Assembly: GCA_029582265.1 (NCBI GenBank)
Contig: CM055821.1
Location: 45,203,694 to 45,267,693, forward strand
Length of the DNA stretch: 64,000 nt
Direction of reading: 5' to 3'
From: Zoroaster sp. YZ-2022
Lineage: Eukaryota > Echinodermata > Asteroidea > Forcipulatida > Zoroasteridae
The notes beneath the pieces were generated by a model. That model was not told where the DNA came from. It saw only the letters and a list, made by a program, of their open reading frames with translations, and did not search any database. Of the stretch, positions 1-53,899 are shown in pieces (the first letter of the stretch is position 1; every line of letters starts with the position of its first letter). Position numbers and translations under genes: made by a program.

Positions 1-17745
<17,745 letters not shown>

Positions 17746-26552: not shown

Positions 26553-26657
26553 TATACGCCTAGCTGCCATTTGCCCACGTTCTCACTTCTGGGAGGCTTG
26601 GAGAGGCGAAGGGCGCCTCAAACAAATAAATATATTTAAGTCAATAAATAAATAACG

Positions 26658-27989: not shown

Positions 27990-28063
27990 AACAGACTGAG
28001 ACTAATATTTTACCAGAACGGAAGGTACTGGTACCGACGATTTCTCCCAAGGAAGGACTTTAT

Positions 28064-28813
28064 GTGTTCGGGAAAATTTGTTCCCTTGATATTCCGCTCC
28101 TTGTAGACACAGGAACTACCGATACAATTATTTCAAGCGAAGTTTATTACAGAATTCCCTCAGAGAGACGGCCGAAGTTGGAGACCGATGGCATAAAGGT
28201 ATGTCAGGCTGATGGGACACCGATAGAGACTCTGGGTGTAGTGCAAATTGAAGTTCAGATTGGAAGAACCATCGCTCCGGTACGTGCAGTGTTTGCCAAG
28301 GTTAGCGTACAAGGAATTCTTGGGATGGACTTTCTCGTACCAACAGGAGGAATATTAGACTTTAAGAACTTGGAGCTTGTGTTGCATGGAGAACACATCA
28401 AGTGTAAGAACCGGTGGGGGACATCGCTGTGCGCCAGGGTTGTGGTAGCCAGGACTACTGTCATACCGCCGGGGCATGAGACCATCATACCAGGGAGGAT
28501 AGATAAATCCCTCGATTCGTGTCATGTCGGAGTTATAGAGCCAGTCGAAGGAGGTGGAGTTGTGGCTAATAAGGGCCTTATACTTGCAAGGTCGTTGGTA
28601 AACATGGATGGAGGTACGCTGCCAGTGCGAGTATTGAACCCAGGACGGCAGAAGTGCGTTCTACGTTGTGGGTTGACCGCGGGCCGCCTCACAACCGTGG
28701 ATGAGAGAGACGTGGAAGAGATGCAACGGAAGGTAGTGGAAAAAGGGATGGAAGACGTACATATGTCCCCGGACACCTTCAGGATCTCTGGAAGCGTAGC
28801 GTCGAGGGGCTAG
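28064..28813 (+). pseudogene. gypsy protease region
   Basis: The open frame, shifted -1 relative to gag, contains an aspartic-protease signature (PLLVDTGTTDTIIS) and the later GILGMDFLVP segment of retropepsins. It would cleave the Gag-Pol polyprotein. The given start is a GTG, and the frame is open further upstream, consistent with translation by frameshifting from gag. It ends at TAG 28811-28813, where it should continue into reverse transcriptase. The RT frame (LWKRSVEGLDARY) picks up in another frame near 28780, so a small indel has broken the polyprotein. Confidence 0.85.
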
Positions 28814-30397
28814 ATGCACGCTATCATTATGCAGTTGCTGGACTACTGTCGGAGTTCGCAGACGTATTTTCCAAAGGAGACCACGACCTAGGAAGAACTG
28901 ACTGGGTGAAACACACAATCGACACCGGCGACGCTAGATCGGTAAAGCAGAAACCAAGGCGTCAACCTCCGTGTAACCAAAAAGAGATCGACCGACAGGT
29001 GGACGACTTGTTAAAAAGAGGCATCATAGAGCCGTCCGATGGTCCATGGGCGTCAAATGTGGTTCTTGTTCGAAAAAAGGACGGGACCCAGAGGTTCTGT
29101 GTGGACTATAGAGGGCTCAATGATAGGACAATTAAGGACGCCTACCCCATCCCCCGAATTGACAACACCCTTGACGCACTAGCCGATGCGAGATGGTTTT
29201 CAACCCTCGATCTCGCATCCGGCTATTGGCAAGTAGAACTCGATGAAGAGGCCCGTAAAAAGTCTGCCTTTGTTGTGCGCGGGGGATTGTACAGCTGGAG
29301 GGTTATGCCCTTTGGGCTGTGCAATGCCCCCGCCACATTCGAGAGGCTTATGGAAAGAATAGCGCGCGGCCTCCAGTGGGAAACTTTGCTCGTGTATTTA
29401 GATGATGTGATAGTATATGGACGGACCATCATGGAGGAAATCAACCGCCTGCGGGAAGTACTGCAGAGGTTCCGTGAGGCTGGATTGAAATTAAAACCGG
29501 GAAAATGTCACCTCTTCCGACAGTCTGTGAAATACCTAGGGCATGTGGTGTCCGCTGCTGGAGTATCTACGGATCCAGACAAGGTGGAGGCTATAAGGAC
29601 ATGGCCTGCTCCGACTGATGTTAGAGGGGTGAGGAGTTTTATTGGGCTAGCCTCATACTACAGGCGGTTTATAAGAGGCTTCGCTGATGTTGCACGCCCC
29701 CGCTTCATAATCTAACAGAGAAAGCACGTGTGTTCCACTGGAGCGACGAGTGCCAGGTGGCGTTTCAAACCTTGAAAACGCACCTGCAAGAGGCGCCGAT
29801 ACTAGCATACCCAGAACCCGAAGGCAAGTTTGTGCTGGACACCGATGCTAGTGGAGTCGGCATAGGAGCTGTTTTGTCTCAAGTGCAAAACGGGGAAGAG
29901 CGTGTCATAGCCTATATTATGCCAGCCGTGCACTCTCCAAAACCGAGAGGAATTACTGTGTGACGCGCAGAGAGTTACTTGCGATTGTCGTCTATCTCAA
30001 GCACTTTAAGCAATACCTGTACGGACAGAGGATAACGATACGAACGGACCATGCGGCGTTAAAATGGTTGGTCACTTTTAAGAACCCGGAGGGGCAAGTA
30101 GCCTGATGGCTAGAGGTGCTTGGGCAGTACAACTATGAGGTATTGCATCGCCCTGGGAAGAAACACGGGAACGCCGACGGCCTGTCGCGTAGGCCATGCA
30201 AACAGTGTGGACGAGTGGACGACGAGAACCTAGAGGCTCCCATGCCAGCGAATGCGAGAGTAGTGGCCGTCGAGCCAGCTGGCGTTAGAGAGGATTTGAG
30301 GAAACGTCAGCTGGAAGACCCCTCTATTGCTTGGGTGATACTTGGAAAAGAGGAGTCGAATCAGCGACCAGATTGGAAGGATGTTGTCCTCCCGTGA
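28790..30397 (+). pseudogene. gypsy reverse transcriptase and RNase H
   Basis: The RT block (28906-29715) is open and has KKDGTQRFCVDYRGLN, MPFGLCNAPATFERLM and the catalytic LVYLDDVIVYG, followed by the thumb motif FIGLASYYRRFI. A frameshift near 29700 moves to the RNase H frame (LDTDASGVGIGAVLSQ). A second near 29925 moves to TRRELLAIVVYLKHF and IRTDHAALKWL. A TGA at about 30104 sits where related elements have Arg in the QVARWLE motif. RNase H removes the RNA template during cDNA synthesis. A further frameshift near 30390 leads into integrase. Confidence 0.9.
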
Positions 30398-31877
30398 GCC
30401 AGCAGCCAAAGTTTATTGGTCGCAATGGGATCAACTAGAGATGAGGCAATTGGTGCTATGTCGTCGTTGGGAATCACATGATGGACAGCAAGTAAAGTGG
30501 CATGTGATCCTCCCATCCAGCCTTCGAGAAGAGAAGATGCATGAATTACATGGAGGGAAGGCTGGAGGACACTTTGGGATCAGTCGCACCCTGGCAAAGT
30601 TGAAGGTGAGGTATTACTGGCCGTGCATGGCGGCAGACGTGAGAATTTGGTGCCGAAAGTGCAATGTCTGTGCGAAACGGAAGTCGCCTGCTCGGAAGAG
30701 GTGTGCACCACTGAGGCAGTACCAAGTTGGCGCACCCATGGAGAGAGTGGCGTTGGATCTGGTCGGTCCGCTACCGGAGACCGAAAGGGGAAACAAATGG
30801 GTGCTAGTTATAGCTGACTATTTTACCAAGTGGATGGAGGCTTGTCCTCTCCCCGACAGTACAGCTGAGATGGTAGCCAAGGCATTTGTGGAGAACTTTG
30901 TTTGCCGATATGGGGTACCAAGAGAATTGCACTCCGACCAGGGTCGCAAGTTTGAGTCAGACGTCTTTGCCGAGATGTGTAAAATATTGGGCATACAAAA
31001 GACCCGTACGGTTGCCTATAACCCAAAGTCCGATGGACTCGTGGAAAGGTACAACAGAACACTGATCAATACGGTGGCAATGATGCTGGACCCAAATCGT
31101 AACCAGAGGGACTGGGACCTACAAATCCCATTTGCTACATTCGCATACAGGTCGGTACCACAAGAATCAACAGGAGAAACGCCAAACATGCTCATGCTTG
31201 GCAGGGAGGTGATGCTCCCAGTGGACCTCACAACAGAAGTGCCTCTTCCTGACGATGCTATGGAACCTAGGACGGACTATGGGGATGAATTGCGCAAGAG
31301 GATGCAAAAAGCCCATGAGCGAGCTAGAGCACAGACAAGGACTAGTGCACGACGCCAAAAGCTCTCCTACGATAGGAAGGTTGAGGGGACAGGTTACGAT
31401 GAAGGCAACTTTGTCTGGCTATATAACCCTTCAAGGAAAAAAGGAGTTTCCCCAAAGTTAGTTTCGAGATGGGAAGGGCCATACCTCATTATAAAGAAGC
31501 TATCTGACGTGAACTACAGGATTCAGAGTAAACCTAGAGGGAGGATGCTTGTGGTTCATTTTGATCGACTGAAGCCTTACCAAGGACCTCCCAAGGATTC
31601 ATGGCAGACAGAGTCCCCGAGAACAGTTGCTGAAATTCCACTCCATGTGGACCAGGAACAATCGCCTGTACAGCGGCATCATCAGAGGACTGATGAGGCG
31701 ACAATTCCGGACACAGGTGTTGACGAGGATATTCAGACTGGCCCAATACTCGAAACGGAGGGTAGTGACGAAGGCATAGTCATTGACACTTTGCAGGCCA
31801 TGGAGGATGTACCCGTATTGGGCCAGAATCGAAGAAACCCTCGAAGGGAGAGGAGGCTACCTGCCTGCTTCCGTTAG
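30342..31877 (+). CDS. gypsy integrase, intact frame
   Basis: The frame is open for 511 codons, the best-preserved part of the element. It has the HHCC zinc-binding domain (HELHGGKAGGHFG, then CRKCNVC), the DDE core (LDLVGPLP, LHSDQGRKFES, DGLVERYNRT) and a C-terminal GPY/F-type module (SRWEGPYLI). Integrase joins the cDNA to host DNA. The first ~50 codons of this frame are probably out of register with the ancestral polyprotein, since the preceding frame ends at 30397. No chromodomain is seen; the tail is acidic and low-complexity. It would need an upstream polyprotein frame to be made, so expression from this copy is doubtful. Confidence 0.88.
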   Translation: MEKRSRISDQIGRMLSSREPAAKVYWSQWDQLEMRQLVLCRRWESHDGQQVKWHVILPSSLREEKMHELHGGKAGGHFGISRTLAKLKVRYYWPCMAADVRIWCRKCNVCAKRKSPARKRCAPLRQYQVGAPMERVALDLVGPLPETERGNKWVLVIADYFTKWMEACPLPDSTAEMVAKAFVENFVCRYGVPRELHSDQGRKFESDVFAEMCKILGIQKTRTVAYNPKSDGLVERYNRTLINTVAMMLDPNRNQRDWDLQIPFATFAYRSVPQESTGETPNMLMLGREVMLPVDLTTEVPLPDDAMEPRTDYGDELRKRMQKAHERARAQTRTSARRQKLSYDRKVEGTGYDEGNFVWLYNPSRKKGVSPKLVSRWEGPYLIIKKLSDVNYRIQSKPRGRMLVVHFDRLKPYQGPPKDSWQTESPRTVAEIPLHVDQEQSPVQRHHQRTDEATIPDTGVDEDIQTGPILETEGSDEGIVIDTLQAMEDVPVLGQNRRNPRRERRLPACFR

Positions 31878-35831: not shown

Positions 35832-38800
35832 GTATAACGTTAACATGAGAACGGCGCTCATTTCATAGTTCTCAAATGGGATCCTGTTTGTTGTTGGTTG
35901 TGATTAAATTCAACACACGTCAGGAAAAGAATGTCGTATCCAACCGCCACTTTTGAAAGGTTTTTTGGGGATTTTTTGGCAACCACTAACCAGCTAAAAA
36001 ATGGTTCTATCGATTTTGTGGGGGGTACAGAATGCGAAAACTATCTTTAAAATCCATATTTATGATGGTTTTGGACTTTATTTCCCTTCTAAAAAAATCC
36101 TCCCCTTCAGAAAATAGAAGAATCCTATTATAGTTGCCACTGTGCATGTACAATGACCATGTTGGTTACTAACGGGGTATTTGACAAAACAAGGTCAGAT
36201 TAATATGATTGAGGAAGTAATCGTATACCAAAAATGTCCATCATCAACCATATGTTCTCCACCTTACTGGGGAGGTAAAATTACATTATCAGTTAGGCCT
36301 ATAATGAACAAGAAAAAGTGGCGGTTGGATACAACCTTCCAGGGAAATATGTGACACATCTATACACAGGGACCAAATTTCTCATATACAATGCTAAGAC
36401 TAGGCCTCACAAATTGGGCAAACGTTCATATCCCTATTTGAAAAAGTCATTTAAAACAGCACTGTAGAATTCCAATCGATCCAGCAATTTTGGCTGCAAT
36501 TGGACATCGTTTCATAGCAAAAAAAGGAACATTAAAAATGCTAAGTAAGACTAATTGCGGTGACACCATGTGGAATCTCAATTGAGTAGTAATTAGTTCT
36601 GAAAAGAACTGGGGGTACAACTCGACGTTTCGATCAGTATGCTCTGATCGTCCTCAGGAGAAAATGCTGTTGCACGGGTCTGAGGCAATGCACGCAGATA
36701 CTTTTTTTTGGCTTTAGAACTAGTTCTTTTTCTACACAACAAGCAATTTTCAGAGAGATTATCCAGTCATGGGAGAGTGATTATTGGATACCGTCATCAT
36801 CGTGCATTTTCATTTTAATTTAATAGTGCTTGGAGAACAGACAGTGATTAAGACTAGTTCAGGGTATGAAAATATGATCCTAAAATGGAAATTGTAAACA
36901 ATGTCCGAGTTTGTGTGTATAGGTGGAGTTAGGGTCTGCTTTTGAAAAGAGGGGTGGGAACATGGTCTAAAAAGGGAGCACGCAGAAATCATATTGTGAG
37001 TTTGACGAGAAAATAATGATTTGAATTTTGCTCATATCAATTAATAATAGACCTTATGCACATGACGTCATTTGAGTAGGGCGCCCTCGGCTAGAGGTCA
37101 AAAGAAGGTTGCTCATTGGCCCAATCTGTGCTCCGCGCGTGTATAGATGTGCGTTTTCCATTGTTTCATCATCGTTTTACCTCTAAGATGGCGGTGTGAT
37201 GACGTCAACGCATAAGGTCTATAATAATAATAATGTGGACTTATATAGCGCACATATCCACCAAACTGGTGTTCAAGGCGCATTATACCCCTGCTCATCA
37301 GGCTCATAAATCATTCCTGAAACCATCTCAGCTCCCTGGATCTGGATCTGGATCAAATACTGCCCAACACCCCTAAAAGGAGCAACACGGGCAGGGTATG
37401 GTGCACAGATGTAGTTGATGGTTTAATTTGCTTGGTTGCTTATTTCTTGTCGACTTGTGTGACGTACTTCCTTGCTTCTGCTTTGAATTTCTGTTTATCT
37501 TCAATTTGTGTGATATAATGTGGCAAGAGATTCCAATCTTTCAGAGTCCGGGGTATAAATGAATACTTGAGACAGTTTTTACTGGATGAGATTTGGATAA
37601 ATTTACAGTGACGAGATGAGCGTAGGACTGGGCGTAGGATCATTTGAAGCGGTATGGCAAGGCGACCCAGGAGGGCTTCGTGGAAGATGGTGACTCTTGC
37701 TACTTTCCTTCTAATCTCCAAAGGCTCCCAACCCAGTTGAACTTTCATTGCCGCTACTGTATCTCCCTATAGTCCCCAATGACGGTTTAACACTTCTATT
37801 TTGTACAGCTTCCAACTTCAGTGTGAGTTCTTTTGTATGAGGATCCCATATGGACCCCCATACTCCAGGCATGGTCGTACTAGTGTTTGATATGCTAAGT
37901 TTTTTACAAACTTTGAACAGGAGTGAAGGTTTCATCGTACAAACCCCAGAGTTTTGTTTGCTTTACTTATGATATTGTGTATGTGTGAGTTCCAAGTTAG
38001 GCTTGATGTGATTGTGACCCCAAGATATGGGTATTCTTTGTTTCAGCCAATATAGTATTATTTAAAGTGTATGTATAACTTGATGGAGATTTTGAATGTG
38101 TTATTTTTAGGACGAAGCATTTCTGCGTTGAATTTCATCTGCCATTTAGCTTGCCAAGCGGTCAATATATCTAGGTCATGCTGCAATCTGCCAGCATCCT
38201 CAGGTCCGCTACATGCCTATAAACGATACAATCGTCCGCAAACAGCTTAACACTGGATGTAAGATCATTTGGCAGGTCATTTATAAAACGACAAAATCCA
38301 TAGGGCCAGAAACCGTGCCTTGGGGACACTCGAATCTACATCCACCCACTGAGAACATTTACCATCAATAACGACCGTTGTTTCCTGTTCGTGAGAAATG
38401 CTTCAGTCCATTTTAATGCTTTGCCACGTATTCCATACCGATTTAGTTTAAGCAGTAATCTTTGGTGGGGTACCTTATCAAAGGCTTTCGCAAAATCCAT
38501 TATGATCACATCGACCTGATGTTTTTGGTCGACGTGGGTCGCAATCTCATGGATGGTATTGATGAGTTGCGTCTCACATGAATGATTTTTGCGAAAACCA
38601 TGCTGATTTTCACATATGATATTGTACCTGTCCAGATGTTTCATTATATTTGACTTAAAGATATGCTCAAACAATTTACTGCAGACAGATGTAAGATTTA
38701 TGGAACGATAATTTGATGGGTTTGTTTTGTCCCCTTTTTTATAGATGGGGGTGATATTTGAAATCAACCAATCTGTTGGAATAACACCCGTGTCTAGTGA

Positions 38801-41800
38801 ATGCTGGAAAATAATTTTTAAAACAAACCCAATTTCCTTTGCTATTATTTTTAAATATTTGGGTGACATTCCATCTGGACCCGAGGCTTTGTTTGGGTTT
38901 AGCTCTGTTAACAACTCAACAACCCCCTCTTCCATAATAATGATATCAGGCATTGTTGGCACATTGCTCATGGGTTCAGATGGGAAGTCATCCAAGTTTT
39001 CTATTGTGAATTGTGATTTAAATTGGTTACTTAGTAACTCGGCCTTCTGTAAGCTATCTGTGATTAGCTTCCCACTTGTTTGATCTCTAAGGGCAGAAAT
39101 TGTTGTATTTCCATTTTTCAATGATTTAATAAAACTGAACATTTGTTTTGTAGATTCTAAACATTTTTCACGAGTGTATCTCCTGTATGCAACTCTTGTT
39201 TCTCTTTTACTCTTTTCGCATCGACTAAAGTTTTCCCAATCCATCTGTGTGTTCTGTTTCACGGCTCTATTGTAAGCTCTCTGTTTGCGCCTTTGGTAGC
39301 GTTTAATTTTCTGGGTAATCCACGGAATATTTTTGTTTTGTTTTACCATTTTTGATGGAACATGTGTTTCAATAGAAGCAACGGCTCTATTTTTGAATTC
39401 TATCCAGAGACTATTTGCATCAGTATCAGATAAATCTTTCATAGCAAAGTCATTACTTATCATCTGAGCATCAGCTTTTAAGCCTTCAGTGTTAGCTTTT
39501 TGATACAGATACACTTTCCTTGGAGTCTGTTTAACCCTTTTGACACTTGCATCAATTTCCACTAACGGAATACCGTCATGGTCACTGATACCAGGGACCG
39601 TTGTAGTTTTGTTTACCAGTGTGGGGTTTGTAGTAAAAAAAAGGTCTAATGTTTTACCACGACGTGTCGGCCTATCAATGATCTGCTCTAGACCAAAATC
39701 AGCAGCCATTTCTATCATTTCCTTGCATATGCCAGGTTTTTGGCACCCAGAATTAGTACATTGAGACTCCCAATTTATATCACCCATGTTAAAATCGCCT
39801 GCAAGCCAAACATTACTATGGTAAATATTTTTGATGTTATTAAGGGAGTCTCTCAACTTATTTAGGTAGGTCATATCGGTGCTAGGTGGTCTATAAAATG
39901 CCCCAACAATGATAGATTTGTTACTTTTAACTGACTCAATTTGAGTCCACACTAGCTCACAATCCACCTCCAGGTCCAATCTATGAAGACTAATAATATC
40001 ACTCTTAGTCGCAATCAGTACCCCTCCGTAAGAATTTCCTTTGGTGTTGGATTTTCTGTCCTTCCTAATGACAGTATAATTTGGTGGAAATACTTCACTG
40101 CTTTGGATTGATTCATTTAACCAGGTCTCAGTGCCCACCACTAAGTCTGGGTCATGTATCTCCAAGCATACCGCTAGCTCCGCGGTTTTCCCTTTCAAGC
40201 TTTGGAAATTTATGACCAAGACCCTTAGTGGGCTCGTGACCCTGTTTGGATCATTATTGGCCTTTGTTCTATTTGGATTTCTCTCCTGTGTGTTTCTATT
40301 TTTCCTACCGGTTTTTGTTTTATTTTGTGGTGAGGAAGTTGCAATTGGGGATTTTATTTTATACAATTCTCCCTCAAATGACCCAATGCTAGTGTTTGTG
40401 CTATCAAATTCCATGTTGCCCGAGTTGAATAGGCTACTGGCTAAATTTGGCATCTTACAACGCCAGCATGACCATGTCAATTTGCTATCCTCAGTATATG
40501 CCTCAAAACTCTCCGTTTTCATGCTCAAGCAATCCACGTGATGCCAACCATCGCAAAAATCGCAACAAATAGATCTTTCACCCCACAGACATGCTTTGTA
40601 ACATATATAGCATGGAAACTGAGAGTCTGAAACACTTGGTAGAGAACTATTTGCACTCGCATTTCCACTAGCATTTGGTCCTGGGTTTGGATGGCAATCA
40701 TGTGCCTGGATGACAACAAGAATGCAAATGTAGAGTAAAGCACATTTAATAGCATGTTTTGTTTTGAATATATGTTTACTTAGTTTCACTATATTGGCTG
40801 AATATGCTTTGTATAGGAACTCTGGAGTTTTTAAACTTCGCCAATATGCATAACTAGTATTAGTCATATCACCCGTCTTCCTTGTCGCACTTGGGTCCAT
40901 CACTGGGTAGCACTTTACATTTCACGAGTGTGGGTCTTGATGTTAATGCCCATAACATTATTGGTCTAGAAAAGAGAGCGCACTCACAGTTATCGACGCC
41001 ATACTTCATGTAGAATCTTACTACGGTAATCCTGGGTCGCCCCACACAAACCACTCGTATTCTCCCCTACGCCCAGCCACTGATGGAGCTTACGCCATCT
41101 TCATTTTGTTAATTGTTCACATGTAATAAATATAACTCCAAAGTCCAAGTCCATTGGGTCGTTATTGTTCAAAATGGCCACCGCCACGGTCCTCGGGTCT
41201 TGAGTAAAAAAATGTATCGCTAAATATCTCATCCATCTTAACGCAACATTTAATGAAGAAGCAACCAAACCAACGTTCGATAGTTGCCCGATGGTATGCA
41301 ACTATAATTTTGTGGGAAACTTAGGTCTTGAGCTCAAATGATGTAAAAATTTGAGCATGGACTTTGCAGTGATGTTCCAAGCACGTCCGACCAGCTCTAC
41401 CCACAATGCACCAACTCCCTGGGGAGTATACAGCTCAATTGCTGCCATTACAGCGCATATAGGGCTAATCAAACACAACAACCAACTCTGCCCTCACAGG
41501 TACCCATTTACTCCTGGGTGGAGAGAAGCAGTTATGGTAAAGTGTCTTGCTCAAGGACACAAGCACCCCGGTCGCGGCTGGGATTAAAGTGCACTTTATA
41601 GACCTTATATCCATTAACATCAGAAACTGAACGGCGCCCTCATTCAGAGGCAAAAGAAGGTCACTCATTGGTTCATATATGCGCGGTGTGCATGCGTGTA
41701 TGCACAGCACGTATACATGAACCAATCAATGACTTTCTCTAGCCTCCGAATGAGGGCGCCCTTCAATTTGTGACATCATGTGCATGAGATCTATAGTGCT

Positions 41801-44800
41801 TTTGAGTATCTGGGGGAATAAACTCCGGTGGGACTCGAACCTTCAACCTTCTGCTTACTAGGACAGATGTCTTGTAACTCCTCGTCCACCGAGCTTGCCT
41901 GAGGATGACAAGCCAGCTGGAATCTTGCAAGCAGTGGGTACCTCAATTTGCATGAAATAGCATTTGAAAATAGTTTTCTGCAGCTGTGAACTATCATAGA
42001 TCAACATTACATGGGACTGAAATTGACCATAAAAATGTCTGAAAGAAAAAAGTACCATTGGGTCACGGTCACTCCAGCTATCTTTATGCTAAATGTATTG
42101 GCAATAATTTCATTTTTCAGTCTCCTGACGATGACTAGAGCAGACTTTTCAGAACCTGTACCTCAGCTTCACGTTAGTTGAGATTAACACATGGTGTTAC
42201 CGCAAACCGAAACGATATCGATATTCCACCATGCAAAGCCTCAAAACTTATATTAGAGCAGACTAGTCGAAACATTGAGAACAAACCAAGCGGCTCTTCT
42301 CAGAGCCATCACTTTTTCCAAAAAGAGATCATTACATGGTGTACCCAAAACAATTACAGCACCTCGGACAAAATTATTATTAGAAGATTGATACTATCAT
42401 CGGCTTTAGACCAACTAAGTTTGACATACAAATTTAACCATTTGGTTAATTACCCATCCTATACCTCATAAATCTTTAAATCTCCTAGATCCCGTGGCCG
42501 AGTGTCGTGGCCGAGCGGTCTAGCGCACCGAACTCAAGTTCTGGTGTTGCCAGCAGCAGGGTGTGGGTTCGAGCCCCGGTCGTGACACTTGTGTCCTTGA
42601 GCAAGGTACTTAACCATAATTGCTTCGTCCTTCGGATGGGACGTAAAGCCGTAGGTCCCGTGTGTTGTGTAATGCACGTAAAAAAGAATGCGCCTTGAGC
42701 ACCACTTAGTTGGTGGATACGTGCGCTATATAAGTCCACACATTATTATTATTATTATCCCCTAGATTTGAGTACAGTTAATCAAATTATTTTGCAAATT
42801 AATTTTTGTCGTCCAGAGTGGTAAATTCCATACTGGAATTAATACACCAAATCTGGATGCATTTAAATTTTAAAAAACATGACACAATGAATAAGCTGAA
42901 GTTGGTTTTGTACTCTTATCATGATTCTGAAAAAGTATGGTTAAATTTACATACATATTACCAAAAGTACATACTGGCTTTATTTTTATAGATTTATTTT
43001 CATTTATTTATTTATTTTTTGGAAGGAATTGGTCTGACAGCCTACTCAGCCTTTATTAACAACTCTAACTGTGCTGAAAAAGGCACTCGTTCTTCGGATC
43101 AAAATGTGGGTAAGAATTTTGGTTTCTTTTTATGTTATTTTGATTGATATACGCACATAATTGGGCCATTGGGGAGACACGTTATGCTGAATAATTCTGA
43201 ATTAGGGAACACTTTGAATTACAACTGTCTCCCTAACTCCTGTTTCTAGGCAAAATTTTTTTGTCAGAAATAGCCTAAAACCCATATTTACTAGGGTTAG
43301 GGTAAGGGTTTTGGTTATGCACAAGTCTATGGGAAGCTCTCTCAAAGGTATCATTTAGGGTATTTATTATTTATTTGGCCAATGACAACATTAACATTAA
43401 CAACATTAACAAGCATAATATTAACAGTAGATAAAATGGAAACTTTAAGCACATTGGAAAAATACAAGAGAAATGAATGGCCAAGGAACATGTATATTAG
43501 ATAGATGAAGGAGGGAGGGAATGGGAGGGGGTAGACAATCCATTCTAAGATGGCCAGTGTAAACAAAAGTGGTTCATCCAGTGAGGTTTTCTGTACAGGT
43601 CAAATGCCATAGAATTAGAAGTAGTCATGATAAAATGAATTAATATCTTAATGCATACCTTGCCTTGTGAGCATTGTGCATACACTTTATGTGCGTATGT
43701 TATGGTACTAAGCGCGCGTGTACTTCTACCAGCCAATGATCGCTAGAGATATTCCGCGCGTACGCACATCAACTGCAAAATACGCAAAACGCGACACTCG
43801 CTGCCCTTCCGCACACAGTGATCTAACAACATGTGCCCTCAACGGTTCATGCACGGTGCGAATAGACCCAATTGTGGTGAATAGCAGAGTCAGGCACTAA
43901 ATGTGTGTTTATAGGTCTCGCCTATGCCATCCGATCACTTGGAATGCACTGCGTTTTTTTTGAGAACTTGCACGCCAGTCTGCGTCATGAATTTACCAAA
44001 TCAATTCTTTTTGGAGTACAGTGCTGTGGGTTGGTTATTGCACGACTGGCACACTTCGTGTATACATGTCATATAATAGACGTTTGGTACAACGAACCAC
44101 ATTGATTATTTTTCAAATAGGTTCTCCCATCAAAGGGTTGCCCGAGTACAGCCACGATGATGTCGCCAATCACACCACTCCAGAGACAGGGATCTGGATG
44201 ACCTACAAAAATGGTGTTTATGACGTGACTAAGTTTGTTGAACACCATCCCGGAGGGGATAAAATTTATTTAGCTGCAGGTGAGATTTTAAGTATTTTGT
44301 TTTGTAATAATTCAGGAATTATCCTGCCTTGTGAACCAGGGGATTCAACAGTAATAATAATAATAATAAAGATTTTTAGCGCGCACATATCCACCCTGCT
44401 GGGCGCTCAAGGCGCGGAAACAAAGAAAAACATGAATACAAACAATATACAATGATACAGTGACTCATATGGAAGTGATAATAAAAGGTAGCCACTGCAA
44501 TAGGATTCTAGCTGGCCTATCATCATCAGGCAAGCTTGGTGGTCGAGAGGTTAAGATGTCTGTAAGTTGTGGCTTTGTATCCTGCCCAAGTCGCCTGTGG
44601 AGTTTTTTCCACAGACACATGGAAAGCACCGAGTATACACTGCTTCACACATATGTTGATACAGGGAAAAAAATCAAATCAATTAATAAAAAAAGGTTTA
44701 CAACTTCTTGTACAGAGTCCATTGGACAACCTCAATTTTCAAACTTTAAATCGTACAGTTTTTAGTACTTCATGTACCTGAAAGGTAAAACGGGTTCCTC

Positions 44801-46385
44801 TTTGATTTATAAGATTTAAAAAAACAAATTATAAGAAAATCTAAATCAATTTGGACCATATTATTAAGGGATTTAGCCAGTTGGATTTTGAGGTAGCATT
44901 GTCTGTTGTGTTGGGGGAAATGAAATAATAGAACAAAATTTTGAGATTCAGTTTGTGGGCAACTAGTTACTTCATAATTTTGTACTCTGATGTTGGGGTA
45001 TTTTTGTATATCTTCCAAAAAGTGGTCTTTTGATGGGTGATAGATTTCATGATAAAGTGTGCCAGAAGCTATCTGAGCTTTTCCCTGATGTGTACAAATT
45101 GTTTCTTGAAATACTAGGTGGCTCACTTGAACCGTTCTGGGCCCTGTATGCAGTACACCAGTCCGATGAAACGATGCATCTCCTGGAGAAATTTCGCATC
45201 GGAAACTTCAAAGATGATGGAAGAACAGAGAAGAAAGACATCAATGATCCATTTGCCCATGAGCATTACCGACACCCAGCACTTCATGTCAACTCCAAGA
45301 AGCCCTTCAATGCCGAGCCTCCGCCGGAGCTCCTTATTGATAGCTTCATTACTCCAAACGAGCTGTTCTTCGTACGCAACCACCTTCCAGTACCCCAGTT
45401 TGACGAGAAGAACTTCAAGCTCACCGTCGAAGTTCCTGGGAAGAAGTCCATCAACCTGTCCTTGGATGCGCTGAAGAAGAACTTCAAGGAGCACACCATT
45501 GTCGGCACCCTGCAGTGCGCTGGAAACCGACGCAGTCAGATGTCCAACTACAAAACTGTCAAAGGTTTGTCGTGGAGGTTCGGCGCGATCAGCACGGCAG
45601 AGTGGACCGGGGTGATGCTTCGTGATGTACTGCTTCAGGCTGGATTGAAAGAAGATGACGAGGCCAAATTTGCTCATGTTCAGTTTGAAGGACTGGACAA
45701 AGACCCCAACGGCGGGAGTTACGGCTCCTCGATCCCATTCTCAGTGGCCATGAATCCATACCGGGATGTCCTTTTAGCCTACAAAATGAACGGTACTGAC
45801 ATCCCTGTTGATCATGGACACCCACTGAGAGTAATCATTCCTGGAAACATTGGTGCTCGAAGTGTTAAGTGGCTTTCAAAGATCGTCGTAAGTGACCAAG
45901 AGAGTCCAAGCCATTGGCAGCAGAACGACTACAAGAGTTTCAATCCATCCGTAGACTTTGGACAGCTTGACTATAAAACGGCCCCAGCTGTTCAGGAGTA
46001 TCCGGTCCAGTCAGCTATCTGTTCACCGAAAGAAGGCAGTAGCGTTGATTTTGACGAAGAAAATGTCACTGTCAAGGGGTATGCCTGGAGTGGAGGCGGT
46101 TATGGAATTCTGCGTGTCGATGTGTCAGTCGATGGCGGGAAGGAATGGCATGTCGCTGAATTGCAAGACGCCGGTCAGAAGATCAACCGAGTGTGGGCGT
46201 GGACGCTGTGGGAAGCCAACATACCAATTCCCAAAGATCACAGCGGAAAACTGGAAATCTACTGTAAGGCCATCGATTCCTCTCACAATGTTCAGCCAGA
46301 TACGATGAAAGGTATCTGGAATGTAAGAGGGCTAATGAATACGGCGTGGCACCGTGTGAATGTCAAGGTTGTGCAAGAGGAATAA
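35576..46385 (+). CDS. SUOX: sulfite oxidase (4 exons, complete)
   Basis: Exons 35576-35831, 43026-43109, 44121-44279 and 45118-46385 join in frame (all introns phase 1) to give 588 residues. Sulfite oxidase sits in the mitochondrial intermembrane space and oxidises sulfite to sulfate, passing electrons to cytochrome c. Visible features are an Arg-rich N-terminal presequence, a hydrophobic stretch LFVGGAVALLGGIGLTAYSA across the exon 1/2 join, a cytochrome b5 domain (HPGG His156 and His180 as likely haem ligands), the molybdopterin domain with RNHLPVP and the Cys ligand in LQCAGNRR, and the dimerisation domain ending in WNLRG/AWHRV-type sequence (WNVRGLMNTAWHRVNV). Human SUOX is 545 residues, so this one is slightly longer at the N-terminus. 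Confidence is lower only for exons 1 and 2. Confidence 0.95.
35920..36335. mobile_element. MITE (GAATGTCGTATC family)
   Basis: The ends AGAATGTCGTATCCAACCGCC and AAAAGTGGCGGTTGGATACA are inverted. The interior (CCTTCTAAAAAAATCCTCCC) matches the copy at 56428-56868. Confidence 0.7.
36340..36535. mobile_element. partial MITE (AAAGTCTCC...TTTCTGG family)
   Basis: ACCAAATTTCTCATATACAA and ATTCCAATCGATCCAGCAAT match the interior of the fuller copy at 57087-57426. Both ends are lost. Confidence 0.6.
36549..36665. mobile_element. MITE half (GGTGACACCATGTG family)
   Basis: GCGGTGACACCATGTGGAATC followed by GAAAAGAACTGGGGGTACAA and the palindromic GATCAGTATGCTCTGATC. The same half-element recurs at 54257-54364. 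Confidence 0.6.
37047..37222. mobile_element. MITE with ATAGACCTTATGC ends
   Basis: ATAGACCTTATGCACATGACGTCA and its near reverse complement TGACGTCAACGCATAAGGTCTAT bound 176 bp. A diverged relative lies at 41597-41798, and another probably near 2140-2310. It abuts the SINE that begins at 37222. Confidence 0.7.
37222..37339 (-). mobile_element. SINE, 3' part, split by the LINE
   Basis: Tail (TAA)n, ACTTATATAGCGCACATATC and body to AGCTCCCTGG. The rest of the same SINE continues at 41415. Confidence 0.8.
37440..38335 (-). pseudogene. LINE RT palm and C-terminal remnants
   Basis: In shifted frames the minus strand continues the element: LFADDC (RT catalytic box) near 38231-38246, GSIWDPHTKELTLKLEAVQ at 37711-37935, and LGWEPLEIRRK...YSFIPRTLKDWNLLP at 37440-37748. 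These are the typical C-terminal motifs of CR1/L2 and Jockey-group LINEs. At least two frameshifts separate them from the main ORF. Confidence 0.8.
38336..40903 (-). pseudogene. LINE ORF: PHD finger, AP endonuclease, RT (truncated)
   Basis: The open frame has 855 codons. Residues 53-67 are hydrophobic and are followed by HPNPGP (71-76), a 2A-like NPGP motif. A PHD-type C4HC3 finger follows (C98, C101, C114, C117, H122, C125, C146, C149). Next come endonuclease motifs (LVVGTETWL, LAGDFNMGDINW, PGISDHDGI), then RT motifs (KASGPDGMSP, QHGFRKNHSCETQL, MDFAKAFDKVPH). The frame stops before the catalytic FADD box, which lies in another frame at 38231-38242, so one or more indels have broken it. The endonuclease nicks DNA and the RT copies the RNA at the nick. 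Confidence 0.88.
41415..41586 (-). mobile_element. SINE, 5' part, split by the LINE
   Basis: Continues from CTCCCTGGGGAGTATACAGC through TGGTAAAGTGTCTTGCTCAA to GGTCGCGGCTGGGATT. The tRNA-like head beyond the B box is missing, so this SINE was 5' truncated. Confidence 0.8.
41597..41798. mobile_element. diverged ATAGACCTTAT-type MITE
   Basis: TATAGACCTTATATCCATTA at the left, ATGTGCATGAGATCTATA at the right. Internal inverted GGCGCCCTCATTCAGAGGC / GCCTCCGAATGAGGGCGCCC. Similar to 37047-37222. Confidence 0.55.
42505..42756 (+). mobile_element. tRNA-Leu-like SINE
   Basis: The head reads GTGGCCGAGCGGTCTAGCGC with ACTCAAGTTCTGG (tRNA-Leu-like anticodon arm) and GGGTTCGAGCCCCGG. It is followed by a short body and GCGCTATATAAGTCC(ATT)n. 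The head is closer to tRNA-Leu than in the other SINEs and the middle domain differs (CCTTCGGATGGGACGTAAAG). Confidence 0.8.
43026..43109 (+). CDS. SUOX: SUOX exon 2
   Basis: This exon encodes the end of the hydrophobic segment (GIGLTAYSAFINN) and a Ser/Asn-rich linker, 27 codons plus split codons at both ends. The acceptor is TTTTTTGGAAG after a T-rich tract, and the donor GTAAGA. The alternative acceptor TTTATAG at 42991 would add 11 codons but break the phase match with exon 1. Confidence 0.8.
44121..44279 (+). CDS. SUOX: SUOX exon 3 (cytochrome b5 domain)
   Basis: This exon encodes 52 residues with YSHDDVANHTTPETGIWMTY and FVEHHPGGDKIYLAA, the cytochrome b5 haem-binding core with its first axial His. 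The acceptor is TCAAATAG, the donor GTGAGA; phase 1 at both ends. Confidence 0.96.
44344..44455 (-). mobile_element. SINE tail fragment (GCGCGCACATATCC subtype)
   Basis: (TAA)n followed by GATTTTTAGCGCGCACATAT and CTGGGCGCTCAAGGCGCGG, shared with 47631-47737. It lies in SUOX intron 3. Confidence 0.65.
45118..46385 (+). CDS. SUOX: SUOX exon 4 (haem end, Moco and dimerisation domains)
   Basis: A single 1268-bp exon encodes the last 421 residues. It begins SLEPFWALYAVH (second haem His) and includes RHPALHVNSKKPFNAEPPPE, FFVRNHLPVPQ, TLQCAGNRRSQM, HVQFEGLDKDPNG, PGNIGARSVKWL and KGYAWSGGGYGILRVDVS. The molybdenum-ligand Cys and the sulfite-pocket Arg are present. The stop is TAA at 46383. No frameshift or missing catalytic residue is seen. 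Confidence 0.98.
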
Positions 46386-48741: not shown

Positions 48742-50790
48742 CAGTGTTGTAACCAAGTAATTTTTTCTCAAGTCAAGTCAAGTCAAGTCACAAGTCAAAT
48801 GTTCTCAAGTCAAGTCAAGTCTCAAGTCAAATTTTCTCAAGTCAAGTCAAGTCACAAGTCAAATTTTCCCAAGTCAAGTCAAGTCACAAGTCAAATTTTC
48901 TCAAGTCAAGTCAAGTCAAGTCAAGTCACAAGTCATTTATCGTCCCGAATAAGGCTAAAAAAGTCTCCAGTTTCAAAATTGGTGCGGTGACGCGATTTTG
49001 TTGTTTGTTTGTTTTGTTTTGTTTAAAAAAAATTTACATGTGTAGGCGGGACCAAATTTCCCATTATACAAAGTATGGTGGCTAAGAGAGGACTCACAAA
49101 TCAGCCAAACGTTTATACCCCTATGTGAAAAAGTGTGGCTGCGATTGGACATCGTTTCATAGCAAAAAATAATAAAATAAAATGCCGACGTGCAGGTCTA
49201 GCTGAGGCCACGCGCACGGAGATCACCAGAAACCGGAGCCTTTTTATTTTTATTTTATTTTATTTTTTTGCCTATAATAATGTTCCCTGTCTTGGCAGTG
49301 AGAATAAATCCAGTGTTTGTCATTTGTTGTTTATAGGATATACATAATTGACACATTTATCTCGAATTAGCCGCGAAACCTCGCTGTAATCATCGGGCAA
49401 TATTTTCTAGAAAACTATACAAACGCACACACGTGTACCGTGTATCGTGCAGTACATGTGAAGGGAAATGTATGGTGAAACGTATAGGCTCAAATGTACA
49501 CTGTAGGCCTAAAGATTGACACTTTATTGAAGATGTTTAGACGTATTTTACTTCATTAATATAAATTGCTGATTGAATAAAATAAATGAAAAACAAGTGA
49601 TAACATGATGGGAGGTAAATAAATGACTATTGAAGACCAGAAACTCACAAACAAATCCAAGTATGACGTTAACGCTTCACAAATTGTGTAGCGCGTCATT
49701 GTTTTTGTTGGTGTCCGCATCTGAATTCAATGTTATTTACAAAACAGGGAACCAGGTAGTTTTTCATCAATTCGGTCCAGAAATTATGGGGGTTGTGTGG
49801 AAAGTATAGAAAGAAGCGATTGAGGTTTAAATTTGTACGAAAATTTGCAGACGGTTGAAGCTGTTACACGCGCGGGACGGAAACCGACGGATGGTAATTT
49901 ACACTCTTATATGGGCCTCGGAATTTGGTAATTTGGTAATTTGGAAGAAGATAAATTTTGTATACGCCCCAAATACTAGTAATTGCTGCTTCTTAGTTAT
50001 TCGGTCGCTGTTAATTGTCACAAACAATACATTTGTTAAAATCACGGACTCCGGATCCAGTGTATTACAACGTTGTGCATGAAATCCTTACTGATTCTGT
50101 GTTGACAACTCTGACAACGCTTGCATAGGTGATGTAAGGAGAATTTAAAAATTACGTTCGTAAAATATTTTAAAATTCCCTTTTTACGGAGTAAAACATT
50201 TAATAAAAAAAACATGTACCCTGATTACACACATAATAAACATAATTTGAGTCAAAATAGCTATTCGGTTTTGTTTTACGAAAAATTTGCGATAATTTGT
50301 TCACCACTTTACAAATTCTTAATACAATTAACAATGTCGCTATAACCTCGTTCCAGCCGTTTGTATAAATTATTTTGAATATTAATGCAATGCCTTTACC
50401 AGTAATAGCCCACTTCTTCCACTACGACGGATTGTGTTGAAGACTAGACATGTAGCGTACACTTTACAGTACAAGGCACATACGTGTACAGTATATTACG
50501 TATAGATATAAAATTCGCGACGGCATTTTTTTCCCGTCACAAAAGTATTCGGCTGCCGTGGCCGGATTGACCAGAAAAATACATGTAATAAAACAACCTA
50601 AAATACATGATGACTTGCAATGTCGTCAAGTCAAATTTACTCAAGTCAAGTCAAGTCACAAGTCATTTTTGTCCAAGTCAAGTCAAGTCCCAAGTCATTT
50701 TTGTCCAAGTCAAGTCAAGTCGCAAGTCACAAAAATTGGCGACTCGAGTCGGACTCGAGTCCGAGTCACCGACTCGAGTCAACAACTCTG
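48742..50790. mobile_element. hAT-type non-autonomous transposon, 8-bp TSD
   Basis: The element is bounded by the exact 8-bp repeat CTATAAGA (48734-48741 and 50791-50798). The ends are CAGTGTTGTAAC and, inverted, CAGAGTTGTTGAC. Subterminal arrays of CAAGT/TCAAG repeats (48768-48935 and 50628-50735) face each other. 8-bp duplications with CAG-type short TIRs are typical of hAT elements. No transposase is seen in the 2 kb. A MITE fragment is nested at 48957-49240. Confidence 0.75.
48957..49240. mobile_element. MITE nested in the hAT element
   Basis: AAAAGTCTCCAGTTTC, ATTGGTGCGGTGACGCG and TACAAAGTATGGTGGCTAAG match 57087-57426. The right end (ATCACCAGAAACCGGAGCC) is inverted relative to the left. 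Confidence 0.65.
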
Positions 50791-50841
50791 CTATAAGATG
50801 TATAAAATAGGATATACAAAATAAGAATACTATAAGATTAT

Positions 50842-51066
50842 GGGTGCCAGTCAACTCGCCCCCTCGCAAACTCGACCCTTACAAACTCGCCCCTTACAAA
50901 CTCGCCCCCCAGTGATACAAACTCGCCCCCTCGCAAACTCGCCCCCCACAAACTCGCCCCTCCGCAAACTCGCCCCCGGCAAACTCGCCCCCCGGCAAAC
51001 TCGCCTCCCCGCAAACTCGCCCCCCCCGCCAACTCGACCCCCGGCAAACTCGCCCCCCAACCCATA
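50842..51066. repeat. left inverted repeat of the foldback element
   Basis: Twelve CAAACTCGCCCC-type units follow GGGTGCCAGTCAACTCG. A partial second array lies just inside at about 51105-51150. Long apparent ORFs here come from the repeat. Confidence 0.88.
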
Positions 51067-51279
51067 TCACCATAATAAATCGTGTCTTTTTTTGTCCTTT
51101 AACACCCCGGCAAACTCGCTCCCCCACACAAACTCGCCCCAAACCCATATTACTGAAAATTATGTGATCCAACTAAATTTTTTATGATGTCTTATAACTA
51201 TGCGGTAAATTGTTTATATAAGCGAGTGAGTAAATCAAATACTTAATAGAGATAAATCAATTTTTTACCGTTTTATTTA

Positions 51280-51680
51280 ACGAACAGTTACAAATAAAAT
51301 CATTGAAACGGTAAAACAAATTAAATAGTTAAATAAACATTTAAAGAATTACATGAGACGATGATTGCTGAAAAATAATTTTAAAAAATAAATAAATAAA
51401 ATAAATTTTTAAATAAAAAGACGTTAAAACGTATTTACTTAAAAAGGCAAATAAAGTAATAAACAAATCAGTGATGATAATAAGTTTAAATACATTGCAT
51501 TGCCTAAAAATTTACTAACAATTTATTTAATTAAAAAAAATATTTAACGAACAGTTACAAATAAAATCATTGAAACGGTTAAAAATTTAAATAGTTAAAT
51601 AAACATTTAAAGAATTACATGAGACGATGATTACTGAAAAATAATTTAAAAAAAAACAAATAAAATAAACATTAATTTAC
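51280..51680. repeat. ~125-bp direct repeat inside the foldback element
   Basis: AACGAACAGTTACAAATAAA through ACATGAGACGATGATT occurs at 51280-51395 and again at 51543-51660, with small differences. Confidence 0.75.
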
Positions 51681-51707
51681 TGGCCATCCGGGCATTTCCA
51701 TAAACGG

Positions 51708-51946
51708 TCAGCACATCCCTAAGTAAAGTCTTGAAGACTTTCTTCCTTTGGTGAAGTCATCCCACATCTTGAAAATTTTCTGCTGTACCGAGGTCCCCGT
51801 CTTTCGTTGTCTCTTTGTGAGTTTGTTCTCTGACACAAGCCGCATCTGCAAACCTACATTTACTGTTTCCTTGTGCAGAAACTGTATCAGCTGGTACATT
51901 GACATGTTGGATCTTCCCGTCCTTCTGTTTAGACGATTGTGCCAGC
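51708..51946 (-). pseudogene. MULE-type transposase C-terminal exon
   Basis: Reading from a TTTATTGTTTGCAG acceptor at 51946, the frame gives GWHNRLNRRTGRSNMSMYQL, IQFLHKETVNVGLQMRLVSE and KIFKMWDDF before a stop. This matches the C-terminal segment that follows the DDE core in FLYWCH/MULE-type transposases of animals (a WHxxxN motif, then amphipathic helices). I found no catalytic core upstream in the remaining ~1 kb of the element, so this is probably an internally deleted copy. The match is from memory of the family pattern. Confidence 0.6.
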
Positions 51947-52157
51947 CTGCAAACAATAAAGAAACACATGTAAACGCAAGAAGAAAAAGAAGAAGATGAA
52001 GAAAGAAAAAAAGAAGATGAAGAAGAAGAAGAAAGGGAAATAAATGTAACATTTGAGATAATACCAACCTTCCAGGTCATTGTTGGTCCTGATGCTCTGC
52101 ATGATTCAACACTTTAGTTTTAAGAGTGTAGGTTGAAATTGTATCTGATTGAAACTA

Positions 52158-52362
52158 TACACTGTAAGAAATATTGGGCAAACACGGTTGATAATGTTAC
52201 CCAACACTGGTCAACATATCAACAGGTTACACAGTTGGTTTCCCATTGCCCAATGTTGGAACATTTTTTGCCAAAATATGTGAACAGTTGTGGTAAATAC
52301 TGACCAATTCTGGGAGAAATAACCTTACCCAACCCCATGTTGCCCAACGTATTTACAGTGTA
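52158..52362. mobile_element. short MITE nested in the foldback element
   Basis: ACACTGTAAGAAATATTGGGCAA at the left faces TTGCCCAACGTATTTACAGTGT at the right. Confidence 0.6.
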
Positions 52363-52971
52363 AGGACAAATACAAGTTTTATTCGTCCAGTTAGAGTAAA
52401 TTTCATCATGAATTTCATCATCATCAACTTCATTTCATAATTAGAACTTTTCATTGTAAGTCGTATATGTCACTCAAGACTACCACTGGGGCCTGTTCGC
52501 GTCTTGGTTTCTTAACATTTTTTTGTTTGAGTGTGTTTTTTAACTTTACCGATAATCGCTGAAGACGGGAAGCGCTGGGTGACCACAATGCACTTCCATC
52601 ACAATAGAATATTGATTAGTTTGAGAGCTTCTCCAAATTATACCATTTTATTTTAAAAATCGAAAACAATATTTTATTTTCAAGTTTAAAAACAATTTTA
52701 CAACCATCTGGAATAAGATGAAACATGATTTCAACTGTTTTTCTCTTGGGTACATTTTGGGGTGAGTCATTATACCAACATCAATTTTCTGATGACTACA
52801 ATTCTGTGCGTCTCAAAAAACGGCGCTCAAGACGTCCACGCATATGATCATGCATTGAAATTCAGCATTTTACAAGAGGATCCTTCACTGCTAATTTCAT
52901 TTGTAAGTTACGGTCCAGTTGATTATATAACCTTAGGTGCGTCATTTAGGGTAAATTGAGGATATTAATTA

Positions 52972-53183
52972 TTCAATATGGGTCGGTGGGCGAGTTTGCC
53001 GCGGGGCGAGTTTGCCGGGGGACGAGTTTGCCGGGGGGCGACTTTGCGGAGGGGCGAGTTTGTGGGGGCGAGTTTGCGAGGGGGCGAGTTTGTATCACTG
53101 GGGGCGAGTTTGCTAGGGGGCGAGTTTGTAAGGGGCGAGTTTGTAAGGGGCGAGTTTGCGAGGGGGCGAGTTGACTGGCATCC
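52972..53183. repeat. right inverted repeat of the foldback element
   Basis: Inverted counterpart of the left arm, from ATATGGGTCGGTGGG through GGGGCGAGTTTG units to CGAGTTGACTGGCATCC. Confidence 0.88.
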
Positions 53184-53321
53184 AAGATTATATATATAAT
53201 ATACCTGATGTATGTTATGCTTTTAAAGCAAAGTATGTTTTAACTGTAATGAGATTTCTTTAAATATGAATCAAGTCTCCCAGAACAAAGATATTGACAA
53301 AATAGGGAGACTGCTTACATA

Positions 53322-53395
53322 GGGGCTGTATGGCTTTGTAGGTACAGCGCTGGTATGGTAAACTGGAGGTCGCAGGTTCAAATCCTGCTCTAGAT
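53322..53395 (+). pseudogene. tRNA-Thr-like sequence
   Basis: GGTCGCAGGTTCAAATCCTGC forms a perfect T arm. CTGGTATGGTAAACTGG forms an anticodon arm with GGT in the loop (Thr). A short D stem (GCT/AGC) fits. The acceptor strands do not pair, so a pseudogene or tRNA-derived relic is likelier than a working gene. Confidence 0.4.
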
Positions 53396-53899
53396 AATTT
53401 CTTTTGTTCACGCAACAAAATTGATTTATGTACATTGTTTGTACCTAGTCAGTTTTTCTTGTGGTTTATTTGATTATATGATTTAAAGTAATCTAATCAT
53501 TATATCAGATAAGCAAGTCCACAGCATTGTACTCCAAAAAGAATGGATTTGGGCCATTCGTGATGTATTACGTAGACTAAAGCACAAGGTCTCAACAAAG
53601 CAGTGAATTCTGGGTGGTTTGTCAGCAAGTGCAAGTCGTGTAATTTACATGCGCTTTTAATTGCATTCTGTATTGTAACATGCACACCAATGAAGTTGCG
53701 TGTTGTACGACTCTCTGATATGCTGTCGACCATCAGCGTGTAGTTCATGTCCCGTTTAATTTTGGAACAAGCAGGCAGCGTTGGGAGCTTCTCTCAGGAC
53801 CCTCTCAAGTAGGGTAGCCCAACTCATTACCGTGCTCGTTGCACTCATGCAGAGTGCAATGCCGTAGACTGGGTTATACTTGGCTGACATACATTGAAA
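53396..53899. other. intergenic repeat debris
   Basis: No gene. GCATTGTACTCCAAAAAGAA near 53525 is an inverted relative of a segment near 44010 in SUOX intron 2. The part near 53806-53880 resembles 61996-62095. Confidence 0.4.

Follow-up and report, generated by a model that had tools for sequence, protein, structure and literature searches.

The window, by which we mean the whole 64,000-nt stretch of Zoroaster sp. DNA analysed here, contains a transposable element with foldback architecture, that is, with long inverted repeats that themselves hold tandem repeats (Table 1). Both ends of the element abut AAGATTAT, an exact 8-bp duplication. When the window was scanned for exact 8-mer pairs at the spacing of the element, only 4 of 61,642 positions had one, the element itself being part of the scan. 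The two arms are identical at 187 of 226 alignment columns, and their alignment score of 257 compares with a maximum of -47 over 200 single-base shuffles of one arm. Cutting the arms at AACTCG or AAGTCG yielded 27 units with a 12-bp core of high information content, AAACTCGCCCCC; the spacer between cores was 3-4 bp in 19 of the 24 cases measured, so that the unit period is mostly 15-17 bp. The order of spacers is nearly identical across the two arms, which therefore look like a single array that was inversely duplicated. An earlier note on this DNA had claimed a bounded element with inverted repeats of 15-17-bp tandem units and an exact 8-bp target duplication, and both claims are confirmed.

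Table 1. Parts of the foldback element and its flanking duplications, in window coordinates
Feature	Positions	Strand	Remarks
Element	50842-53183		Left end GGGTGCCAGTCAACTCG at 50842, near-complement at 53183
Target-site duplication, left	50834..50841	.	AAGATTAT
Target-site duplication, right	53184..53191	.	AAGATTAT
Left arm	50842..51067	+	7-bp end GGGTGCC, then AGTC and tandem units; inner edge ACCCATAT
Two more, outlying left-arm units	51105..51140	+	
Last exon of MULE transposase gene	51708..51946	-	WHNRLNRR...GMC*
Predicted intron (sequence reading)	51947..52068	-	GT donor 52068, AG acceptor ends 51947; (AAG)n-type expansion
Penultimate exon fragment, 36 bp	52069..52104	-	MQSIRTNNDLEG; third catalytic residue (Glu), GT donor
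Deletion junction	52102..52104	.	3-bp microhomology TGA (+ strand)
5'-side remnant of parent element	52105..52975	-	Upstream of the parent's first coding exon
Right arm	52976..53183	-	Left arm inverted; end GGATGCC reading inward

Two 32-bp CAAGTC-type tandem arrays lie at 48773-48918 and 50642-50729, one of them immediately left of the element. A tRNA-like sequence (53324-53396; Rfam RF00005, 38.8 bits) stands 140 bp beyond its other end; ARAGORN made no call there, and the sequence is possibly a tRNA-derived SINE. Elsewhere the window has a histone 3' UTR stem-loop (42287-42332; Rfam RF00032, 35.6 bits) and, by eye, frames like a Gypsy-like retrotransposon gag-pol (26652-31874), an 861-aa minus-strand frame like a non-LTR retrotransposon protein (38339-40921) and a 464-aa frame like sulfite oxidase (44991-46382).

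The coding remnant and its relatives in the genome

The earlier note had also seen in the minus-strand exon a resemblance to the end of MULE transposases. This exon is preceded by a canonical acceptor, and beyond the intron lies the fragment of the penultimate exon, which had been overlooked. Spliced, the two read IRTNNDLEG joined to WHNRLNRR, and the spliced peptide begins IMQSIRTNNDLEGWHNRLNRR. The window copy thereby retains about 92 codons of a MULE gene, including the Glu motif RTNNDLEGWH; upstream of the Glu exon the gene is lost entirely, both catalytic Asp residues included.

An HMM search of 51708-51946 against MULE profiles, as the earlier note had suggested, gave no MULE match in Pfam for the exon, either alone or joined, returning only sub-threshold scores for unrelated families. 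Protein database searches with the remnant found nothing, no named animal MULE sequence being returned, and scans of viral and prokaryote contigs for the tail, the tail motif and the tandem unit were empty. Four matches to a looser RTNN..E..WH pattern were rejected, as their frames had no resemblance to MULE proteins. Against seven bacterial IS256 C-termini the joined peptide came first among 3,263 sequences (itself, 1,262 window frames and 2,000 shuffles), at a weak E of 0.052. The splice was the best of 1,641 GT-AG joins in the element, at 11.5 bits vs. 6.9 for the next independent join, when scored with a small bacterial IS256 profile that gave a score to 1,004 of the joins. We take this IS256 ranking as a weak indication, superseded by comparison with frames from the same genome. 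At host-genome loci matching the MULE domain PF10551, RTNNDVEGWH occurs in 10 of the 22 frames read; the 91-aa peptide is 42-48% identical, over about 90 residues, to the C-termini of all nine frames compared, which are nine of those ten (L040 was left out). A MULE domain was found in each of the five among the nine that were sent to Pfam (L034, L035, L037, L038 and L050). The identity of the exon as MULE thus follows from its relatives in the same genome, and by this route the resemblance is upheld.

Fuller copies and the movement of a deletion derivative

We searched the host genome (1.0 Gb, 616 contigs) with the 17-bp end of the element, allowing at most one mismatch, and obtained 412 matches (203 + 209), against none for a reversed control. 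PF10551 had 50 genome matches, 30 of which were studied as loci. Longer stretches were taken around five of these, which were near family ends or resembled loci that were; all five (C1, C21, C8, C7 and C13) bear the end and the tail exon of the window's family, and in all but C13 the PF10551 match is located between family ends. C1 measures 5,795 bp (duplication TACGCGAG) and C21 6,134 bp (duplication GATAAGGT). C8 (3,781 bp, duplication CGCTGTAC) has a partial MULE match and a doubled right arm (L059:6261-6764), whose outer end is the one to which the duplication corresponds; C7 (3,110 bp) has no exact duplication, and a single end of C13 was found in its stretch. The tail exon occupies the same place in these five copies and in L021 and L025, and its 3' end varies among them; the C-terminus in the window copy is unlike that in C21. 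There is also an 8.5-kb two-ended stretch with the same arms (L081:101-8555), which lacks both the MULE tail exon and an exact duplication.

Read on the minus strand, the PHD exons of the C21 gene precede its FLYWCH exons; next are one MULE and one C..H exon, then the Glu exon and finally the last. The predicted GT/AG borders of these exons were read by eye from the sequence. In the joined exons PF10551 scored 46.4 bits (cut-off 27.6, 5.7e-12) and a FLYWCH finger N-terminal to the MULE domain 25.3 bits (cut-off 23.6, 1.7e-5), while PHD matched over its full length at 22.8 bits (9.5e-5), below the Pfam cut-off of 24. The motifs YVDGT, MLDFE, CAFH and RTNNDLEG make up the catalytic triad with C..H between the second Asp and the Glu, with D-D, D-H and D-E spacings of 67, 24 and 117 residues, and Trp candidates stand 14, 19 and 24 residues ahead of the Glu. 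C1 and C21 are 97.6% identical over 5.3 kb. Each has one in-frame stop inside the MULE domain; hence we claim neither as active, and no autonomous copy of the window's subfamily. Pfam scans of the frames of these two copies found no other transposase.

The genome check proposed in the earlier note, for same-ended copies with a DDE MULE gene, was thus positive (the 5.8- and 6.1-kb copies). Of the two findings that it had named as refuting a MULE lineage, an unrelated transposase was not seen in C21 and C1 by Pfam, nor was the exon a fragment captured in the window copy only, since it is the 3' end of the gene of the fuller copies. The MULE assignment of the window's family, as the note had suggested, is established.

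Aligned with C21, the window copy matches positions 1-1210 in two pieces (97% and 95% identity) and positions 5034-6134 at 97.4% identity, the latter match comprising the 5'-side remnant and the right arm. The two matched regions overlap by 3 bp, TGA; 3.8 kb present in C21 are absent from the window copy, and both arms are kept. A 30-bp junction pattern, searched with up to two mismatches, was found at five places in the genome, all of them exact (C4, C6, which is the window copy, C12, C13 and C14), and a control gave none. Four of the five have exact, mutually different 8-bp duplications in dissimilar flanks: besides that of the window, GTATATAC at C4, TACTGACC at C14 and GTCTGAGT at C12, the last adjoining a degraded left end. 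The left end of C13 was not found in the stretch read. Different exact duplications at one junction indicate that the derivative moved after the deletion, and repeated insertion of one deletion product argues for a transposase supplied in trans. The 5'-side remnant also contains a MITE-like insert (52160-52360). Its ends are, by eye, near-complementary (CACTGTAAG... and ...TTTACAGTG) and have TA on either side; the insert is within the part common to the 6.1-kb copy and so looks older than the deletion.

Copies were gathered for a wider count of duplications by junction (the same-junction copies), by domain (the MULE copies) and, for 12 further ends, as the first twelve one-mismatch matches in the list of genome ends. 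A partner within 3 kb was found for 8 of these 12 ends, and the duplication was exact in 5 of the 8, or in 4 of 6 with a duplicated region counted once. Overall, exact abutting 8-bp duplications occurred in 13 of 20 two-ended copies (the window copy, C1, C21, C8, L023, L065, L066, L068, L069, L070, C4, C12 and C14) and were absent from C7, L022, L062 (7 of 8), L067, L071, L075 and L081. Because the flanks of L065, L066 and L067 are common to them on both sides, these are copies of one insertion in a duplicated region; counting that region once leaves 12 of 18 independent sites exact. A length of 8 bp lies within the 8-11 bp of MULE target-site duplications. The three are small copies of different lengths on contig C1, from an old insertion whose unit numbers have come to differ. 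Among the copies with exact duplications are some of 372-865 bp, those of 372 and 554 bp being in one duplicated region. A tiny relative of 171 bp (L068:2137-2307) has related ends (GGGTGCAGGTCAACTCT); its 8-bp duplication, TTAGATGG, is exact.

Sister subfamilies and known foldback elements

Within 1.5 kb of the domain match, 12 of the 30 PF10551 loci have a 16-bp tandem array of at least 2.8 copies; by the same measure no period-16 array occurs in the window outside the element, where three arrays have periods of 14, 15 and 18. The array units differ and look related: A, the window's family, AAACTCGCCCC; B and C, AACTCGTAC; D, GTTTCGTACC; and E, CAAAACGTCCA. Many PF10551 loci are without arrays in this range, as are A copies whose arms lie further out. 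Arrays are oppositely oriented on the two sides at 7 of the 10 loci studied on both. At L047 a full array on only one side faces a shorter inverted match, and no array pair is seen at L033 or L034. Separately, the units of L050 have the same orientation on both sides, contrary to the inverted pattern. An exact 8-mer pair was found 5-8 bp outside the arms at 5 of the 10 loci (L031, L038, L039, L041 and L043), and one with 7 of 8 matching at L040. Since about 75 by 75 placements were allowed in this search, a chance match is expected about 0.1 times per locus, and the near-symmetric placement of the pairs is a stronger sign than the match. Between duplication and arm, the sister loci have a short, unequal end of 5-8 bp, in most cases with RGTC after it.

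In an unrooted FastTree tree of 30 short MULE-core sequences, like-armed loci cluster together, with support of 0.93-1.00 for A, C, D and E; the B loci form two groups, joined at 0.89. PHD occurs with MULE at L034, L035, L037 and L047, under the Pfam cut-off in all four, and FLYWCH occurs with MULE at L050 (Pfam). At L052, L053 and L056 a distant MULE domain fragment lies next to arrays in which a 17-bp unit is repeated up to 75 times; these may be another tandem-repeat lineage or a satellite seeded by one, and we do not claim them as arms.

The link between foldbacks and MULEs is old in general, and the design of Muta1, an Aedes aegypti MULE that its authors class as a type 2 Foldback, is nearly identical to that of the window's family (PMC5225508). 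Muta1 likewise has a MULE DDE transposase with a FLYWCH finger and a short terminal motif followed by 12-bp tandem repeats with 3-4-bp spacers; it makes duplications of 8-9 bp (8 bp here), and its derivatives are mobile in trans (PMC5225508). It differs in unit sequence and host phylum and in its 3.2-kb length with two exons, against about 6 kb and more exons for the parent here; the word PHD does not appear in the main text of that paper, whereas the parent here has a PHD-like finger (PMC5225508). Its D-D, D-H and D-E spacings are 69, 24 and 136, vs. 67, 24 and 117 in C21 (PMC5225508). Changing D214, D283, E419, H307 or W401 of Muta1 to alanine abolished activity; its two Asp, its His and its Glu have clear counterparts in C21, and for the Trp, 18 residues before the Glu in Muta1, C21 offers the three candidates given above (PMC5225508).

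Compared by description, Tm1, a Mutator/Foldback element of Meloidogyne, is also a FLYWCH MULE with composite arms and a tandem motif of about 14 bp, and its asymmetric 7-bp ends resemble the unequal ends of the sister subfamilies; its duplications are of 9 bp rather than 8, and that description makes no mention of a PHD finger (PMC3169594). Phantom, group 20 of Dupeyron et al., comprises animal MULEs, some with FLYWCH, whose 8-10-bp duplications and terminal inverted repeats of up to 613 bp can be likened to those of the window's family; the table in that paper lists no PHD finger for it, while the family here has a PHD-like one (PMC6446971). Like the family here, Rehavkus has a MULE-related transposase with a PHD finger, and a minisatellite close to a terminal inverted repeat, but it has 9-bp duplications and arthropod and annelid hosts, and FLYWCH is not listed for it (PMC6446971). 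More broadly, most foldbacks seem to be Mutator elements (PMC4079207). Muta1, Tm1 and Phantom are known examples of MULE foldbacks with arms of this type. In Galileo the tandem repeats contain sites for the THAP domain, and the role of tandem repeats as binding sites has been termed untested for Foldback and Phantom elements (PMC3688188). The novelty that the earlier note implied for a link between tandem-arm foldbacks and MULEs does not hold, as Muta1 (PMC5225508) and Tm1 (PMC3169594) had already shown it. The present analysis adds an echinoderm family, a chain of evidence from derivative to parent, the joint presence of PHD-like and FLYWCH fingers and subfamilies of constant period.

Origin of the element and the TU question

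We are highly confident that an internal deletion in a Mutator-superfamily (MULE) DNA transposon with terminal inverted repeats of ~16-bp tandem units gave rise to the window element, as a non-autonomous derivative. The 3.8 kb were lost between two TGA trinucleotides; what survives is both arms, the noncoding 5' part, the last exon and 36 bp of the penultimate one. The shortened element subsequently moved to other places. A MULE transposase made elsewhere would act on it in trans: its FLYWCH finger, and perhaps its PHD finger, would bind the tandem units, and the enzyme would pair the two ends, cut and insert with an 8-bp stagger, a presumed catalysis that rests on the superfamily. On this scheme the tandem units are putative transposase binding sites, and their repetition may provide a multi-site recognition array that raises specificity. 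We count against this explanation the 7 of 20 two-ended copies that have no exact duplication, the D-E spacing of 117, shorter than the 136 of Muta1, the in-frame stop in each of the two long copies, and the PHD score under the Pfam cut-off.

The window copy by itself, with just its ~92 codons of gene, could be a foldback from outside the MULEs, of the P/Galileo or hAT superfamily, into which part of a MULE gene was captured; P/Galileo and hAT elements likewise make 8-bp duplications. Galileo is moreover a case of foldback arms arising outside MULEs (PMC3688188). Such a capture is nonetheless very improbable, given that in longer same-armed copies the MULE gene is found at the same position and reads in the same direction, that the window copy aligns collinearly with these copies to either side of a single deletion, and that the Pfam scans of C21 and C1 detected no other transposase. 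Another reading, which we think unlikely but take seriously, grants transposition and denies the arms a part in it: the tandem units would be products of slippage or gene conversion, and the transposase would read the outer end only. Unit number does differ among copies, the copies of 372-865 bp do carry exact duplications, and Muta1 derivatives of differing terminal inverted repeat length still moved in yeast; yet none of five natural Muta1 derivatives was as mobile as an artificial element that carried 250 bp from each end (PMC5225508). The 12-bp core is also conserved where the spacer is variable, and sister subfamilies, for all the divergence of their units, again show the 16-bp period and a related core. 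Finally, we see hardly any chance that the exon was domesticated or captured and has nothing to do with the mobility of the element. Its frame stays open, and it is absent from 17 of 21 end-bearing stretches (that of the window copy being one of the 21, and several reaching only 1.5 kb inward), but it keeps its place in seven copies and its 3' end differs from copy to copy.

A 1983 Nature paper is said to have described the TU elements of Strongylocentrotus purpuratus as having long inverted repeats, tandem units of about 15 bp and 8-bp duplications, with arms that were reportedly hundreds of bp long. On that description, the ~15-bp outer-arm units and the 8-bp duplication are both matched by the window element, whereas the TU arms are the longer ones. 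The genome has one match to bindin (PF02084; 113.6 bits over 60 positions), against none in 14 control genomes, and this match contains LGLLLRHLRHH, a sequence common to sea urchins and sea stars (PMC4063459). Bindin thus narrows the host to one of these two groups. The residues on either side of this sequence look sea-urchin-like. Membership of the window's family in TU, matched by its architecture and its bindin-bearing echinoderm host only, is plausible. The literature searched, most subscription journals being outside its scope, yielded no TU sequence and no paper assigning TU elements a transposase; PMC4079207 cites the 1983 paper. We give even weight, for and against, to the proposal that TU elements are non-autonomous PHD-FLYWCH MULEs, in which transposase and ~16-bp unit have co-diverged under a constant period in five subfamilies or more, the arms being a putative co-evolving multi-site array.

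With the finding of collinear long copies, and of a deletion derivative that moved, a tandem-arm foldback family of echinoderms gains a transposase. That transposase brings PHD-like and FLYWCH fingers together, where a published table lists PHD for Rehavkus and FLYWCH for Phantom (PMC6446971); the PHD-like finger is possibly a variant feature. The question of what moves TU elements is now one sequence comparison away, and the subfamilies, with their equal period, different units and related transposases, are a natural set in which to address whether the repeats of foldback elements are binding sites.
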